Part shown: positions 14,558 to 34,827 of the stretch, piece by piece
Numbering within the stretch: position 1 is the first letter of the stretch
Layout of the letters: every line of letters starts with the position of its first letter
From: Nitrospira sp. LK70
GTDB lineage: Bacteria; Nitrospirota; Nitrospiria; Nitrospirales; Nitrospiraceae
Direction of reading: 5' to 3'
Assembly: GCA_011090425.1 (NCBI GenBank)
Contig: PHGD01000037.1
Coordinates: 1-37,853 of the forward strand
Length of the DNA stretch: 37,853 nt
Translations under genes and position numbers: made by a program
Notes under the pieces: model-generated
Databases searched by the model: none
What the model was told of the DNA's origin: nothing
Seen by the model: the letters and a program-made list of their open reading frames with translations, nothing else

Positions 14558-14740
14558 ATGCTGCGGGTCACATTGCTTTTCCTGGCCTCAGTGCCCTTTC
14601 TCACGGGATGTGAATCCACGAACCCTGTACTGCCGAAGGCTGCGAGCGTGCTCGACAGCCGAACCGGCAGGACTGTACTCGACATTGCCGACGCAAGGCA
14701 GGAAGGTCAGCCGGCAGGAGGTGGGGCCGAGCTGGACTGA
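14558..14740 (+). CDS. Small putative lipoprotein
   Basis: This 60-residue ORF starts MLRVTLLFLASVPFLTGCEST, a textbook lipoprotein signal with lipobox LTGC. The mature part is about 43 residues with no recognisable domain. It overlaps the 3' end of the convergent PilZ gene by 34 bases, and no good ribosome binding site is seen, so support rests on the signal peptide alone. It could be an outer-membrane or inner-membrane anchored lipoprotein. Confidence 0.45.
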   Translation: MLRVTLLFLASVPFLTGCESTNPVLPKAASVLDSRTGRTVLDIADARQEGQPAGGGAELD

Positions 14741-15108
14741 TGGTTCATGAAAGTCTGGAGATGTTTATTCTCGTTGGGAGATAACCCCTCAAACTCTACT
14801 CCGTAGGTCTGTTCTTTCCCCCACCGGACCGTGGCGGCTTCGATGAACATGGATGCCGCCAGAGTGGGTAGTCGCAAACTCATGGCGATTCGGTCTCCTG
14901 GTGTAATCACCGCTTCCGTCATCACACGCACACCTTTTGCCGACAGGTCATAGACGATCCCTAGACTTTGTTCAACCGCCCCTTTCCTCAGCACACCGAC
15001 CCTGGTCAACGAACAGGGAAATGGAGCCGACACACGCACCCGAGGGTGTTTGCGCAATTGTGGGATATTCCGTCCACTGATGCCCTTGACACCTAGATCA
15101 TCCGTCAT
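14707..15108 (-). CDS. PilZ-domain protein
   Basis: This 133-residue protein is almost entirely one PilZ domain. The c-di-GMP binding signatures are present: an RxxxR-type stretch 'LRKHPRVRVSAPF' (about 19-32) and a 'YDLSAKGVRV' (D/NxSxxG) motif near residue 55. No other domain is seen. It starts 3 bases after the stop of a second PilZ gene, so the two are certainly one unit, downstream of a DEAD-box helicase. Stand-alone PilZ proteins usually relay c-di-GMP to motility or exopolysaccharide machinery; the target here is unknown. Confidence 0.9.
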   Translation of the reverse strand: MTDDLGVKGISGRNIPQLRKHPRVRVSAPFPCSLTRVGVLRKGAVEQSLGIVYDLSAKGVRVMTEAVITPGDRIAMSLRLPTLAASMFIEAATVRWGKEQTYGVEFEGLSPNENKHLQTFMNHQSSSAPPPAG

Positions 15109-15111
15109 AAT

Positions 15112-15492
15112 TTACTCTTTCGCTATACCTGAAGTATTCAGATACTCAGTCAACCGCGTTAACGACGATTGCGAGACCGTGCTGAACGCAAGTCCATGGA
15201 ACTGATGATTCGTCCAGCAAACGGTGGCCACCGCTACCTCTGCTGGAGGAGTGCCCTTGGTCAGTCGAAGCGCGAGAGAAACCTTGTCGCCAGGCTTGAT
15301 GGCCGCTTCGGTGCTCACGCATGCGCCCTGCAGCGACAAATCATAGACCACACCAACATCACTGACCGGTTTCCAACACCACCATCTGGTTGTCAGAGAA
15401 GAAAGCGAACAACCGAAGGGCACGGGAATGCGCAGTCGGGGGTATCGTCGAACTTTGTCATGTGTCAGGTCCGGCGGATGAATCGTCTGCAT
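15112..15492 (-). CDS. PilZ-domain protein translated from a hairpin-masked start
   Basis: This 126-residue single-domain PilZ protein has 'VRRYPRLRIPVPF' (RxxxR) near residues 14-26 and 'YDLSLQGACVSTE' (DxSxxG) near 60. The frame is open to a GTG at 15516, but that codon lies in a hairpin loop with no ribosome binding site. The ATG at 15492 is preceded by AAGGTGG at 7 nt spacing. That site lies in the 3' arm of the perfect 17-bp hairpin at 15495-15537, so the structure should hide it from ribosomes. It sits between the upstream DEAD-box helicase gene and the second PilZ gene. Confidence 0.9.
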   Translation of the reverse strand: MQTIHPPDLTHDKVRRYPRLRIPVPFGCSLSSLTTRWWCWKPVSDVGVVYDLSLQGACVSTEAAIKPGDKVSLALRLTKGTPPAEVAVATVCWTNHQFHGLAFSTVSQSSLTRLTEYLNTSGIAKE

Positions 15493-15494
15493 GC

Positions 15495-15537
15495 GAATCC
15501 ACCTTGTGAGAGACACTGTATCTCACAAGGTGGATTC
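15495..15537 (-). promoter_or_regulatory. Perfect 17-bp hairpin masking a PilZ gene ribosome binding site
   Basis: GAATCCACCTTGTGAGA (15495-15511) and its exact reverse complement (15521-15537) flank a 9-base loop. Read on the minus strand the hairpin starts 20 bases after the helicase stop codon and ends 2 bases before the PilZ ATG. Its 3' arm contains the Shine-Dalgarno sequence AAGGTGG. No U-run follows on the minus strand, so it is not an ordinary intrinsic terminator for the helicase gene. It may block translation, protect a processed mRNA end, or act as a DNA operator. Confidence 0.75.
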
Positions 15538-15556
15538 TGCGAACTATTTTTGAACT

Positions 15557-16843
15557 TTATGTGTGGATTGTCGTCGCAACAGGATGCGAGGACGATTCGA
15601 CACGGGGCTTTCTCGCGTTGCGGAAGGAGTAGGGTTGGGAACGCTTCAGGTGACTCGTCGTGGGATGCCCGTTCCGGCGAAGGCCTCCGCCTGGGACAGG
15701 AACCGCGGGTGAAGGTGCCTTGCTTCCGGGGGAAACCGGAACTGCACAGCCCAACAGACGCTCGATCTCTCGGAGTTGCTGAGAGTCTTCTCCCGTCACA
15801 AAACTTGTCGCGCGACCGGTCGTCTTCATTCGGGCTGTGCGACCGATGCGATGCACATAATCTTCCGGACAATTCGGCAGATCGAAATTGATCACATGGC
15901 CGATGTTTGCGACATCGATCCCTCTAGCCGCAATATCCGTTGCGACCAGCACACGGAAGGATCCGCGTTTAAACCCTTCCAGTGCGGCGCGCCGTTGCGA
16001 CAAGCTCCGGTCTCCGTGCAATACAGCCACTCGATGGCCGGCACGACCCAGCAGGTGTCCCAACCGATCAGCGCGATGTTTCGTTCTGGTAAACACGAGG
16101 GCTGTGTCCGATTCGCCGCCGAGTAATGATAGGAGAAGATCGGCTTTGTCGGCGTGGGATGTGTAATGCACCGCTTGCGTGATACCCTCGGCCGTCGTGG
16201 CAGACCGTGCGACCATCACACGCACCGGATTGTTCACGCTGGCTTGGACCAGCCGCGCCAAGTCAGCCGGCAAGGTAGCCGAAAACAGCAGCGTCTGTCG
16301 TTGTTCCGGCAAGGCATCGAGTATCTGGTTGATTTGCGGGGCAAAGCCCATGTCCAACATCCGATCCGCTTCATCCAACACCAACATCTTAATCGACGAC
16401 AACAAGATCGTGCCGTTCCACATGTGATCGAGGAGACGGCCCGGCGTCGCGACCAAGATATGGGGGCTCTGCCGTAAACCTCGTATCTGGGCCTGCATAT
16501 CAGCCCCCCCTACGATCACGGTCGCGGAGATCCGCCGACTCCGTCCCAACTTCTCGATTGTGGCTAAGATCTGCAACGCCAGCTCACGCGTCGGCGCCAA
16601 GATCAAGGCCTGTGGCTGTCCTTTGGGAAGCATTGCGAGCCGTTCAATGATTGGAATGACGAAAGCAGCAGTCTTCCCTGTCCCGGTCTGAGCGCATCCG
16701 ATGACATCTCGCCCTGCAAGCGCCGGTGGGATGGCTTGCTCCTGAATGGGAGTCGGTGCGGCGAATCCGGCACCAGCCAAGTCTTGCAACAGTGCTTCGG
16801 ACAAACCGAGAGCACGGAAATTCACATGAACAGACGTATCCAC
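15557..16843 (-). CDS. DEAD-box RNA helicase (RhlE-like)
   Basis: This 428-residue ATP-dependent RNA helicase has all core motifs: Q motif 'FAAPTPIQEQAIP', motif I AQTGTGKT, Ia 'APTRELA', DEAD as 'LVLDEADRMLDMGF', SAT, 'LVATDIAARGIDV' and 'HRIGRTAR'. The C-terminal tail (about 375-428) is basic and rich in Ser, Gly and Pro, typical of RhlE-like helicases that unwind short RNA duplexes in ribosome assembly or at low temperature. It is the first gene of a helicase-PilZ-PilZ unit, separated from PilZ by the masking hairpin. Confidence 0.95.
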   Translation of the reverse strand: MDTSVHVNFRALGLSEALLQDLAGAGFAAPTPIQEQAIPPALAGRDVIGCAQTGTGKTAAFVIPIIERLAMLPKGQPQALILAPTRELALQILATIEKLGRSRRISATVIVGGADMQAQIRGLRQSPHILVATPGRLLDHMWNGTILLSSIKMLVLDEADRMLDMGFAPQINQILDALPEQRQTLLFSATLPADLARLVQASVNNPVRVMVARSATTAEGITQAVHYTSHADKADLLLSLLGGESDTALVFTRTKHRADRLGHLLGRAGHRVAVLHGDRSLSQRRAALEGFKRGSFRVLVATDIAARGIDVANIGHVINFDLPNCPEDYVHRIGRTARMKTTGRATSFVTGEDSQQLREIERLLGCAVPVSPGSKAPSPAVPVPGGGLRRNGHPTTSHLKRSQPYSFRNARKPRVESSSHPVATTIHT

Positions 16844-30371: not shown

Positions 30372-30453
30372 GCCCGGTGCGATGGTATTGAACCATCGCA
30401 CCGGGCTTTGGCTAGACCGCTATATGAGGCTGCCGGGCTAATCCCGGCAGCCT
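30372..30453 (-). terminator. Two perfect hairpins behind the copper operon
   Basis: GCCCGGTGCGATGGT (30372-30386) pairs with 30392-30406 around a 5-base loop, giving 15 bp. AGGCTGCCGGG (30427-30437) pairs with 30443-30453 around a 5-base loop, giving 11 bp. They follow the stop of the propeller gene by 10 and 57 bases in its direction of transcription. Neither has a U-run on the minus strand, so they may stop transcription only with Rho, or protect the mRNA 3' end. Confidence 0.5.
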
Positions 30454-30463
30454 GCACACACCG

Positions 30464-32569
30464 CTATGGGGTACAAGAAGGGCTCCCTGCCGGGAAGCCA
30501 CTCCTTCTCTGAGACTCCGTCAATTGACTACACCAAGAGCTGGGCAGGTTCTGCACCCAGCCGTGGTAGACGACCGGAACCGTCAGGATGCCCTGTCCGC
30601 CCATGCCCGGATTGCCGATCACCTTATCGTCATGCACAGCCGACGCCTTCCCAGCTAGCAACAGGCGCCCGACTATGGCGGCATCACTCGGATCGCCGTC
30701 CCTGTTGACATCCGGATCCACGACAATCAACGCGTTGCTGAATTTGCTGGCGACATAGGCGTAGTATTGGCCATACGGATTCGTATCGCCAGGCGGCAAT
30801 GCTTTGGCGCCGTATTGCACGCCGTGGCAGCCTGGGTCACAAGGCAACATCACCACGACCTTGTCTTCATTCGGATTTTCCGTTTTGTTCGGCAGTAGAT
30901 GCCGAGTATCAACAATCGTGATGGTGGCGGTCAAGGTATTGGCCGTCACCATGTTGGTGCCGTCAGGGCTCACCGGCGTCTGAATCGGCAGGGCACCGAC
31001 CGGCCCAGTGATTCCACCTCCAACCGGGTCGTAGTTGGCAATCAAATTAATCGGACTCTTGGCCGTGGGCGAGTTGTTGACCATATCCATAACCGATATG
31101 CTGTGACCAAGGAAATTGGCCACGTAATACTTGCTCGAATCCGGCATCATTCCCGTGGCGATTGGTACAGCTCCTGTATCAGGTGTGGCATCGATTAGAT
31201 GGGAGCGGAAGTTATACACCGTCGACGTACTGACATTTTCGTTCGGCGTCACCATCTTCATTCCGTCAGCGCTCATCCAATGACCATGAGGGTGAGTGGC
31301 ATTGTTAATGTCTCCGTCTGGAACAACCATGTCCGTTCTCATCGGGATGTCCTTCAGGAAGACATTACTATTTGCCAGCGTGTCAAACTCCCGCACGTTA
31401 TTGCCGCCGTTCTGTGCCACATGCACTTGGTCGTTATTGGCTCTCGTCATCACATGCGAGGGAGCGGGCCCCGCGTTCAGTTCACGTATGAACTTGCCGG
31501 TCTCCCTCTCAAACACCGTCACTCTCTCGTCGAACCATTGAGTCTGATAGATTACTTTCTGATCTTTATCCGTCCACATGTTGTGGGGATGGTTCATATT
31601 GTGCGCTGGGAGTGCAACCTTCTTTGTTAGCTTCCAGTCCGCTCCGTTGATGGCCGTCGCCGTCCCCGGCTTCGATTTCCCCCCTGTCAATTCAAACTGG
31701 GTGTTGACCCAGATTTCACCAACCGCTGCTGTTTTCGGGTTAAATAATTTATTTTCTCGAGTGTTTAGATCGACGGTCCCAATCGAAAGCACCGCGGAGA
31801 GATCCGAAACATCCACCCTGGTTCCATCTTGTTTGTACACAATCACCGGGACAGCCGGAAAGGCTGGAGACCACGTGCGCTTGGTGTAATCTTTCCAATT
31901 CCCCGGATCCGTGACAATAAAGAAGGTGCGCAAGAGACGGATCGCCAAATCGCTGTATGTCGGGACCGTAAGACGGCCGGCAGGGTCGGCAAGATCGTCG
32001 GGAAGGCCGGGAGGGCCGGCGACCAGTGTAATCTTTTTGCCGAGATCCAATCCCACCGTCTTGTCATCATCCACGATGACCCCCGCAAACATATAGACAT
32101 GGATGTCACAGATGAAGACGTACAGGCCTGGCTCCGTCAACTTCACGGTGGCCACCCCTCCCGGTTCCGGGTGGCGAAAATCGATGGCTGCCTTGAATGG
32201 CATGAGATTGTCACCCTTAATGGGGGGGACACCCTTGGGCCTAGTGGGGGCACCCTGGGGCCAAATCAAGCTCAGCGCCGTATGGATCGTGCTTGCTTCT
32301 CCACCATACGTGGAAAACCCCACCGTATCTCCAGGGCGAATGACGGCGAGGGACCTCTGTCCAGCCGTTGCATTCACACACCCAGGGGCGGGGGGAATGG
32401 GAGGCTTCGCGGTGCTGTCGCCTGACGTGCCTGTGTTCGAACAAGTAAAAAAGTTTCCCGGCCTGTCTCCAGCCTCGAATGACACGGTAGGTGCTGCCTG
32501 GGCCACGCCGGCCGTGCCCCATCCCACCAGCATACTGAATAGAGCCAATAAGAGTTGTCGCATGTTCAT
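30464..32569 (-). CDS. Exported plastocyanin-like copper domain fused to a beta-propeller
   Basis: This 701-residue exported protein has a signal peptide at about residues 1-26 (MRQLLLALFSMLVGW, ending VAQA). A cupredoxin-like domain (about 30-190) carries a type 1 copper-site pattern: an upstream His (STIHTALSL) and the Cys-His-Met loop 'YVFICDIHVYMFAGVIV'. The remainder (about 310-690) reads as a YVTN-type beta-propeller, with His-rich turns 'HNMNHPHNMW' and 'HPHGHWMS' and a C-D-P-G-C-H element. The ATG at 32569 follows AAGGAAGG; the frame is open further upstream without support. It is the last gene after the multicopper oxidase, suggesting electron transfer between the two in the periplasm. 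Substrate unknown. Confidence 0.8.
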   Translation of the reverse strand: MNMRQLLLALFSMLVGWGTAGVAQAAPTVSFEAGDRPGNFFTCSNTGTSGDSTAKPPIPPAPGCVNATAGQRSLAVIRPGDTVGFSTYGGEASTIHTALSLIWPQGAPTRPKGVPPIKGDNLMPFKAAIDFRHPEPGGVATVKLTEPGLYVFICDIHVYMFAGVIVDDDKTVGLDLGKKITLVAGPPGLPDDLADPAGRLTVPTYSDLAIRLLRTFFIVTDPGNWKDYTKRTWSPAFPAVPVIVYKQDGTRVDVSDLSAVLSIGTVDLNTRENKLFNPKTAAVGEIWVNTQFELTGGKSKPGTATAINGADWKLTKKVALPAHNMNHPHNMWTDKDQKVIYQTQWFDERVTVFERETGKFIRELNAGPAPSHVMTRANNDQVHVAQNGGNNVREFDTLANSNVFLKDIPMRTDMVVPDGDINNATHPHGHWMSADGMKMVTPNENVSTSTVYNFRSHLIDATPDTGAVPIATGMMPDSSKYYVANFLGHSISVMDMVNNSPTAKSPINLIANYDPVGGGITGPVGALPIQTPVSPDGTNMVTANTLTATITIVDTRHLLPNKTENPNEDKVVVMLPCDPGCHGVQYGAKALPPGDTNPYGQYYAYVASKFSNALIVVDPDVNRDGDPSDAAIVGRLLLAGKASAVHDDKVIGNPGMGGQGILTVPVVYHGWVQNLPSSWCSQLTESQRRSGFPAGSPSCTP

Positions 32570-32590: not shown

Positions 32591-32623
32591 GCCATGTGTG
32601 AACAGCTGCTGCTCACACATGGC
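32591..32623 (-). promoter_or_regulatory. Intercistronic 11-bp hairpin between oxidase and propeller genes
   Basis: GCCATGTGTGA (32591-32601) and TCACACATGGC (32613-32623) form a perfect stem around an 11-base loop containing CAGCTG. It lies 20 bases after the oxidase stop codon and 21 bases before the next ATG. It has no U-run. It could set relative expression by partial termination, processing or mRNA stability. Confidence 0.55.
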
Positions 32624-32643: not shown

Positions 32644-34635
32644 CTAGTGGACGTGAAGCTCCGACATCATGCCGAACGTGGCATGAGGAAGGATGTGACA
32701 ATGGAACAGCCACCGGCCCCTCCCTCCGTCCAAGCCCGACAAAGCGCCCATCAGCGGACGACCTTCCAAGGAGACCAAGAACGTGAGGGTGTTATTCGCA
32801 GGCACATCCACGATGTCCAGAAACTCATTCGAGAAGGTGTAGTTTCCTGTTGATGAGGTCAAGCTCTTCGGCTGAAACGAAAACCCGTGCAAATGAAACG
32901 GATGGTGCGCCCCCGTCGTATTGGTCACCTTCAGCTCGATCACTTTGGAGAGAGCTGCATGACGGGCTGATTCCAGATAAAAAGGATTGCCGCTGGCCAT
33001 ACCGCCATCGAAGTCACGCGGCATCGGGACCCCGTCAATCGACGCCTCAAAAGCACCGCCTTTGGTAAAGAACGTCAGCTGGATGTCTGGATCCGTTGAC
33101 CCAGCCGGCGTCGTATCATCTACCCTGGCTTCGCCGGTGGGATTGACAAGGCCAGCTGTTGGCCCACCGAGCACCTGCACCGGCCCTAACCCCGCACGCA
33201 GCCTCGTACCCGGTGGAATCGTGTACGAAGTGGCCGCACTACCAGTAACCTTCAGATGCATCACTGGCACCGTCGGAGTCCATGAGTATGTGGCTTCCAC
33301 TCGTTGGAAATCCTCCGTCCAGAGAGTGAGCACGGAGCCTTGCGGAAGATTCGGAATCTCCGCCACCACATCCGCACGACCTGCAGGTGGGAGCAGAATT
33401 TCGCCGCTCCCATATTTCGTATCAAAACCACTAGTAATGCCCCCCTCAACAACCGCGTAGTCGAGCAGCCCCCCTTGTCCACCGATTCGAACCAGTCGGA
33501 TTTGCCCCGCGTTGCTATCAGTCAACCGAAGGCGCATGTAACGGACCGGCGAGGGATTCACGATCTGCAACCGCAATCCCTGACCAGCCTGAACGTCAAG
33601 CGTTGACGCACCGGGTGCAAGCGCGCCTAGAGGGCCTAGGACATGAGGATTTCCAGCGCGCCCACCAACATTCACACCGTTGGTGAGGACCGTAAACCCT
33701 TCACTCATACGACCAGTTAAGCTGGGAGATTGAATGTTCGGAACGTCTCCTCTATGGTAGGGCTGCTTTAAATACACTCCATTTGCATCCAGCGGATACG
33801 TATCGCAGAGGATGCTCGGGGACTGAGTCAAAATATGATTTTCGTAGTTGATCTGCCACGATTGGACGCCACTGACGTGCGGCAGAGTGCCGTCGAATGT
33901 GGCCGGGTTAGTGCCCGGCTTGCCGCAGACCGTGATGTCGCTGAGCACCAGCGTCTTGGTATGGGCCGCCGAAGGGATCACGCCATCAACCAAAGGATTA
34001 CTCCCCTGGAGCACGGCCTCATACGGATCCTCAATAATGATCGATCCGTAGAGTCCTTTGGCCACTTGGTTGGTCGACGAGTGGTGATGCGGGTGGTACC
34101 AGAAGATCCCCGGCCGTGTGACAGTGAAATCGTAGGTGAACGTACCCCCTGTGGGATCCACTGCAGGCTGAGTCACCTCCGTGCCGTCACTGGCATTGTT
34201 CAACTCGATGCCGTGCCAGTGAATACCGGACACATTCGCCTCTGGAGTCAACCCTGACTTCTTGAGTTTATTCACAAAATGCACGATGACCCGGTCATTC
34301 ACCTTGAGCCGAAACTCCGGACCGGGTATTCCAGGCGTTGTACAGTCTTTAAGCTGTGCGTCTGAACAGCTCTTAAACGTCATCGCGTTCGCCTTCACCC
34401 CATTGCCGATATCAACGGTCGCCTCGTCTGCCACAATCCAGGTCTCGACGCCGTTGCTGGGATTACTATCGCTGTCTTTAACCTTGGGCACCTCATACGG
34501 ACTGCCTCCCGTCGTGGCCTGTGCTGATTCTTGGCCGGACGCGCATAGCATGATCCCCAAGACCCCGGCGAGGCATGCTTTCCAACTGCTACACATCACG
34601 TTTTTCGCAGAACTGCCCGATACATCTTGCGCCAT
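32644..34635 (-). CDS. Exported multicopper oxidase, laccase/CueO-like
   Basis: This 663-residue multicopper oxidase has all four copper-binding blocks: HWHG (139-142), HPHHH (181-185), HPFHLHG (578-584) and HCHILPHATFGMM (645-657). The last supplies the type 1 Cys, His and Met ligands. An N-terminal signal segment (about 17-42) predicts export. Length fits three cupredoxin domains with extra loops. Such enzymes oxidise phenols, bilirubin-like compounds or metal ions (Cu+, Fe2+, Mn2+) and reduce oxygen to water; nothing here fixes the substrate. The ATG at 34635 follows GGGAGA at 8 nt. It is third in a run of four genes encoding exported proteins. Confidence 0.93.
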   Translation of the reverse strand: MAQDVSGSSAKNVMCSSWKACLAGVLGIMLCASGQESAQATTGGSPYEVPKVKDSDSNPSNGVETWIVADEATVDIGNGVKANAMTFKSCSDAQLKDCTTPGIPGPEFRLKVNDRVIVHFVNKLKKSGLTPEANVSGIHWHGIELNNASDGTEVTQPAVDPTGGTFTYDFTVTRPGIFWYHPHHHSSTNQVAKGLYGSIIIEDPYEAVLQGSNPLVDGVIPSAAHTKTLVLSDITVCGKPGTNPATFDGTLPHVSGVQSWQINYENHILTQSPSILCDTYPLDANGVYLKQPYHRGDVPNIQSPSLTGRMSEGFTVLTNGVNVGGRAGNPHVLGPLGALAPGASTLDVQAGQGLRLQIVNPSPVRYMRLRLTDSNAGQIRLVRIGGQGGLLDYAVVEGGITSGFDTKYGSGEILLPPAGRADVVAEIPNLPQGSVLTLWTEDFQRVEATYSWTPTVPVMHLKVTGSAATSYTIPPGTRLRAGLGPVQVLGGPTAGLVNPTGEARVDDTTPAGSTDPDIQLTFFTKGGAFEASIDGVPMPRDFDGGMASGNPFYLESARHAALSKVIELKVTNTTGAHHPFHLHGFSFQPKSLTSSTGNYTFSNEFLDIVDVPANNTLTFLVSLEGRPLMGALSGLDGGRGRWLFHCHILPHATFGMMSELHVH

Positions 34636-34681
34636 AGTACATCTCCCTAGTGTTATGACAAACGATCCGCATGATATTGCA

Positions 34682-34827
34682 CTAGACTTTAAGATCCCAA
34701 GCGTCGCCCACATCAAACAAATGATCAGGCGTATCGCTGACGGTACAGGTCACATCCGCAATGGCAGCTTGACTCGCACCCAACAGCAGTCCTACCGCCG
34801 GGTAGGTAATACACGACTGAATTTCAC
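34682..34827 (-). pseudogene. Tiny secreted-protein gene with a one-base frameshift
   Basis: A strong TAAAGGAGG site precedes GTG at 34827, which opens MKFSRVLPT. The frame then hits a stop near 34794. If one base is restored in the C-run at about 34800-34802, the frame continues with PAVGLLLGASQAAIADVTC and ends after 'GDAWDLKV' at 34682. The result is a 48-residue product with an excellent signal peptide (cleavage AIA-DV) and a mature part of about 24 residues. An assembly error in a homopolymer or a real mutation are both possible. It lies 29 bases after the HEAT-type gene and 46 before the oxidase gene. No family is recognised. Confidence 0.55.

Follow-up and report, generated by a model that had tools for sequence, protein, structure and literature searches.

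Organization of the helicase-PilZ junction

The window, i.e. the whole 37,853-nt stretch of Nitrospira sp. LK70 DNA analysed here, carried on its minus strand a gene for an RhlE-type DEAD-box RNA helicase (15557..16843; Pfam DEAD, 1.5e-54; Helicase_C, 1.9e-30) followed by two PilZ genes. PilZ#1 (15112..15492; 126 aa; PilZ, 3.5e-09) started with the ATG at 15492-15490, and PilZ#2 (14707..15108; 133 aa; PilZ, 1.1e-11) was situated 3 nt 3′ of PilZ#1, with which it is presumably co-transcribed. The N-terminus of the PilZ#1 orthologs, MQTI, was conserved; a further in-frame start upstream, a GTG, was not conserved and was rejected. Between the helicase gene and PilZ#1 we found a 43-nt palindrome (15537-15495), the longest inverted repeat in the window, whose halves (15495-15515 and 15517-15537) were complementary at 20 of 21 positions. 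On the minus strand it formed a perfect 17-bp stem with a 9-nt loop, with more pairing beyond one mismatch. The 5′ arm (15521..15537, minus strand) was separated from the helicase stop codon by 19 nt, and the 3′ arm (15495..15511, minus strand) from the PilZ#1 ATG by 2 nt. Within the 3′ arm lay the Shine-Dalgarno sequence of PilZ#1, AAGGTGG (15499..15505). The initial annotation of this DNA had described a perfect 17-bp stem with the PilZ Shine-Dalgarno sequence in its 3′ arm, and this description was confirmed, including its coordinates and distances. No site resembling an intrinsic terminator was found between the helicase and PilZ genes; the palindrome itself was also rejected as a terminator, since no run of T follows its 3′ arm on the minus strand.

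Folding of the hairpin RNA gave -35.5 kcal/mol (z = -4.5), and none of 200 shuffles was as good. By a rough estimate, 37.9 kb would contain a perfect stem of 17 bp or more, with 3-15 nt in the loop, by chance with a probability of about 3e-5. Stems of 12 bp or more numbered only 21 in 1.22 Mb of the sister genome G024, and the orthologous hairpin tied for the second longest among them. An unsupervised scan for the full layout, a nested promoter together with a Shine-Dalgarno sequence in the stem, returned this locus alone both in the window and in the 1.22 Mb of G024, and none in shuffled sequence. Both the stem scan and the layout scan of G024 were independent of gene prediction, in which PilZ#1 had been skipped on the 1.22 Mb.

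Conservation of the stem and a promoter-like loop

Protein and covariance-model searches located the hairpin in 55 of the 79 Nitrospira genomes, many of which are MAGs, at one locus in each; the 34 other genera of the order that were sampled all lacked it. The extra covariance-model matches were weak and corresponded to the opposite strand of the hairpin itself, and a tblastn search of plasmids returned nothing. The 38 distinct junctions aligned with hardly any gaps outside the loop and the positions immediately before the ATG. In this alignment, 95.6% of the cells were paired, 10 of the 15 pairs were altered on both sides, and double-sided changes amounted to 57 cells as compared with 18.9 expected from shuffles, a level reached in none of 500 shuffles; controls with slid partners gave far lower covariation values. 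The compensatory variants included CCUUGUG/CACAAGG, CCUCGUG/CACGAGG and CCUCCUG/CAGGAGG, as well as AUCCAC/GUGGAU, AUCUAC/GUAGAU and AUUUAC/GUAAAU. Compensatory changes in related genomes had been set beforehand as the check on the stem, and the strong covariation observed established a conserved RNA stem over the Shine-Dalgarno sequence. Mismatch types were also counted: in the 13 core pairs, G.U occurred in 38 cells and A.C in 1; with the two end pairs added, the counts were 41 and 8; and outside the fixed Shine-Dalgarno purine columns they were 16 and 7, these 7 A.C cells all being in the end pairs. The asymmetry arises in part because the Shine-Dalgarno purines are fixed, and the excess of G.U wobbles over A.C indicates that the stem is selected as RNA of this strand and not as a DNA operator.

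Careful examination of the loop and its flanks revealed what looks, from its sequence, like a sigma-70-type promoter, a feature that the initial annotation had overlooked. The loop holds a predicted -10 element, TACAGT (15515..15520, minus strand), and a predicted -35 element, TTCGCA (15538..15543, minus strand), lies just outside the stem, the 5′ arm constituting the spacer between the two. TAnAGT was present in 38/38 junctions, with position 3 taking all four bases and the other five never varying, and TTCGCA or a variant of it (TTCGCG, TTCGCT, TTCGTA, TTCGTG, TTCATG or TACGCG) was located exactly 17 nt from TAnAGT in each of them. Just 5′ of the -35 element is an A-tract (15547..15551), which we take to be a possible UP-element proximal site and in which AAA was invariant in all 38. 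Unlike the fixed 17-nt spacing between the -35 and -10 elements, the distance from the -10 element to the 3′ arm varied by 1-2 nt across the junctions. An invariant A was found in the 3′ arm 5-7 nt after the -10 element (38/38); in the window it is the A of CTCAC (15507), 7 nt after the -10 element, and is the predicted +1.

Upstream of genes in the 1.22 Mb of G024, TTG-N17/18-TAnAGT was observed 14 times as compared with 1.0 expected, while most other spacings between TTG and TAnAGT had no excess; TAnAGT is therefore a normal type of -10 element in Nitrospira. As a -35 element TTCGCA is weak (4/6 match to TTGACA), and TTC-type -35 elements were not enriched genome-wide in the G024 scan. A sigma-70 consensus scan of the window passed over the loop promoter, which matched at 8/12 and thus fell below the cut-off of 9/12.

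Transcription starting at the invariant A is predicted to yield a leader of 12-16 nt in which the Shine-Dalgarno sequence is kept and the 5′ arm is absent. In LK70, the predicted probability of the Shine-Dalgarno sequence being unpaired was 0.000 in the read-through RNA and 0.32 in the predicted own transcript; averaged over the 38 junctions, the values were 0.03 and 0.47, respectively. The main PilZ transcript is accordingly predicted to start downstream of the 5′ arm, a situation that the initial annotation had regarded as incompatible with its proposal, in which the helicase, temperature or a regulator opens the stem. With such a start, the hairpin would therefore be a filter against read-through RNA.

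Rearranged and decayed loci

The hairpin was present only where the helicase gene lay directly upstream. PilZ#1 was preceded by a divergent gene in 8 genomes, in which its leader retained the A-tract, a -10 region of the GAGATACAGT or CGATACAGT type and the Shine-Dalgarno sequence. TACAGT was kept in these 8 orthologs, while the 3′ arm was unpaired and the Shine-Dalgarno sequence was open (0.51-0.71 unpaired). In those of the separated genomes that were checked, the helicase gene was about 3-4 kb from PilZ#1, had a different gene after it and carried no copy of the hairpin at its 3′ end. A helicase tree with midpoint rooting placed the separated genomes in one clade nested among the hairpin bearers, and they were therefore counted as one event. 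It was also noticed that L057, L058, L060, L061 and L064 contained two reverse-oriented ORFs (about 237-244 and 425-441 aa) between PilZ#1 and the helicase gene; a Pfam search of the divergent neighbour (the larger ORF) in the separated genomes gave no family.

In 11 genomes (L030-L032, L073, L075-L083), PilZ#1 was N-terminally truncated and started at about residue 48, with the frame still open in several of them, and in G015 it was lost altogether, the stem being still there. Where PilZ#1 was truncated or gone, the -10 element had decayed to TACTCT, TACTGT, TACGGT or CAGAGT. In L071/L072 (G091, G090), the PilZ#1 ATG had become ACG and most of the gene length was gone, and TAGAGT together with a re-paired stem (CCACGUG/UACGUGG) persisted upstream of PilZ#2. 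The decay of the -10 element with the loss of PilZ#1 and its retention in G090 and G091 suggest that it tracks the need for downstream expression and not the stem. In the truncated clade (11 genomes), the outer stem pairs were lost and the promoter was gone, and the inner 10-bp stem was invariant (0/20 variable sites vs 17/49 elsewhere, p = 0.0015), suggesting that the stem has some value apart from the promoter. Either silencing of read-through RNA is still useful in this clade, or the stem has a role at the 3′ end of the helicase mRNA.

Possible roles of the hairpin

We consider it probable that the palindrome is a translational insulator of PilZ with a promoter nested in the hairpin. From the arrangement described above, we infer promoter activity at the loop, a start site in the 3′ arm, the existence of read-through RNA and its silencing. 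RNA reading through from the helicase gene would hold both arms and would fold, so that the PilZ Shine-Dalgarno sequence would be buried and PilZ would not be made. The gene's own sigma-70-type promoter, in which the -35 element flanks the stem, the 5′ arm provides the spacer and the loop carries the -10 element, would give a transcript starting at the A within the 3′ arm; such a transcript could not form the stem and its Shine-Dalgarno sequence would be free. The choice of start site would decide whether a transcript is translated, and PilZ dosage would depend on its own promoter alone, irrespective of the activity of the helicase gene. As a tentative and somewhat doubtful extension, the helicase promoter may produce a long mRNA that carries PilZ unexpressed, like the long untranslated leader isoforms, and transcription running through the nested promoter may repress PilZ. 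In that case, induction of the helicase (e.g. by stress) would lower c-di-GMP receptor output.

The leading rival of insulation, or possibly its companion, is that the main function of the stem concerns the helicase mRNA, in which it would block 3′ exonucleases or set the 3′ end, the overlap with the Shine-Dalgarno sequence being a by-product that is harmless given a promoter downstream of the 5′ arm. This is consistent with the invariance of the inner 10 bp in the 11 genomes with truncated PilZ#1 and no -10 element, with the persistence of the stem in G015, and with its absence where another gene follows the helicase gene, and such a role could act together with insulation. However, in every case the 3′ arm stopped a few nt at most from the PilZ ATG and covered the Shine-Dalgarno core with almost unbroken pairing, which a 3′-end stem does not need, and no U-tract follows the stem; a 3′-end function as the main role is thus rather unlikely.

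It seems very unlikely that PilZ is read from a helicase co-transcript in which the stem serves as a switch and the helicase, temperature or a ligand opens it. Part of the initial annotation was supported: the stem covers the Shine-Dalgarno sequence, its conservation includes compensatory changes, and any mRNA containing both arms should be blocked in translation. The proposed opening by helicase, temperature or regulator found no support. A switch would fit the hidden Shine-Dalgarno sequence, and the helicase gene was adjacent and codirectional wherever an intact hairpin and a complete upstream region were present. However, nothing specific points to the helicase as the opener, and adjacency adequately explains the link, because the hairpin occurred only with the helicase gene directly upstream and on neither gene in the separated clade, where the PilZ#1 orthologs retained the -10 element and not the stem. 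Predicted folding energies of the stem were about -29 kcal/mol (37°C) and -20 kcal/mol (55°C, where it remained folded), a stability too high for an RNA thermometer. Rfam searches offered no plausible match for a regulator or a known riboswitch, giving only weak, below-gathering matches to eukaryotic miRNA and snoRNA families; no conserved ligand domain and no conserved competing alternative pairing were found, and the loop is an invariant -10-like element, not a variable loop. A CsrA-type loop was rejected as well, there being no GGA in the loop.

A DNA operator bound by a dimeric repressor over the promoter is most improbable, in spite of the palindrome being conserved and overlapping the -35/-10 spacer, the -10 element and the predicted +1, as operators do. 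The half-site spacing differed by 1-2 bp between species (L006, L008, L039), a variation not easily accommodated by a dimeric repressor; the arm sequences drifted while pairing held, the 38 G.U vs 1 A.C in the core being unexpected for a DNA dyad; there was one site per genome with no adjacent repressor gene; and the dyad was lost without the upstream helicase gene though the -10 element stayed. Protection of an insertion sequence against read-through was also rejected, the hairpin being at a single fixed locus between the helicase and PilZ genes, with one copy per genome.

Sequestration of translation signals in impinging RNA is known from mobile elements: in IS10 and IS50, a fold-back hairpin in impinging transcripts inhibits transposase translation. 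In IS200, a stem-loop occludes the RBS (PMC3196728). Unlike these, the Nitrospira hairpin involves no mobile element and would shield PilZ, at a fixed chromosomal locus, from its neighbour. In phage T4 late genes e, soc, 49 and I-TevI (also segB and Aeh1 mobE), the RBS is sequestered by a hairpin in long upstream-initiated transcripts, and shorter RNA from a promoter located within the 5′ arm or immediately after it has the RBS free (PMC3014915, PMC2988022). As in T4 e and I-TevI, the RBS of PilZ#1 lies inside a stem in upstream-initiated RNA (mean unpaired 0.03 in 38 junctions, with covariation). The conserved TTCGCA-N17-TAnAGT, a putative promoter with its -10 element in the loop and a predicted start, would give a transcript that omits the 5′ arm. 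Whereas the T4 hairpins belong to a phage temporal programme with the late sigma factor gp55, the Nitrospira promoter appears to be of the housekeeping type and is chromosomal, between two cellular genes, with covariation across the genus. RNA thermometers, riboswitches and ribosomal-protein leaders likewise sequester a Shine-Dalgarno sequence in the 5′ leader; unlike them, the present stem is very stable and perfect, with no ligand domain or alternative fold, and the start site would decide, not melting or a ligand. A literature search, with most subscription journals outside its reach, found no precedent for a non-mobile chromosomal gene pair.

Insulation of a gene from neighbouring transcription is usually credited to terminators, whereas here it would act at translation and be conserved on the chromosome. 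With the -10 element, spacer and Shine-Dalgarno sequence folded into one 43-nt palindrome, start-site choice by RNA polymerase would decide translation. A promoter in the loop and a Shine-Dalgarno sequence in the 3′ arm may provide a searchable signature for similar devices, and also a compact design for an insulator.

Two other hairpins were noticed on the minus strand of the window. A perfect 15-bp hairpin with a 5-nt loop (30372-30406), without a U-tract after it, is located downstream of a 708-aa ORF ending at 30464. A near-perfect 16-bp hairpin (32591-32623) separates a multicopper oxidase gene (32644-34716) from the codirectional gene that comes next (ATG near 32569); the Shine-Dalgarno sequence of the latter, AAGGAAGG, is outside the stem.
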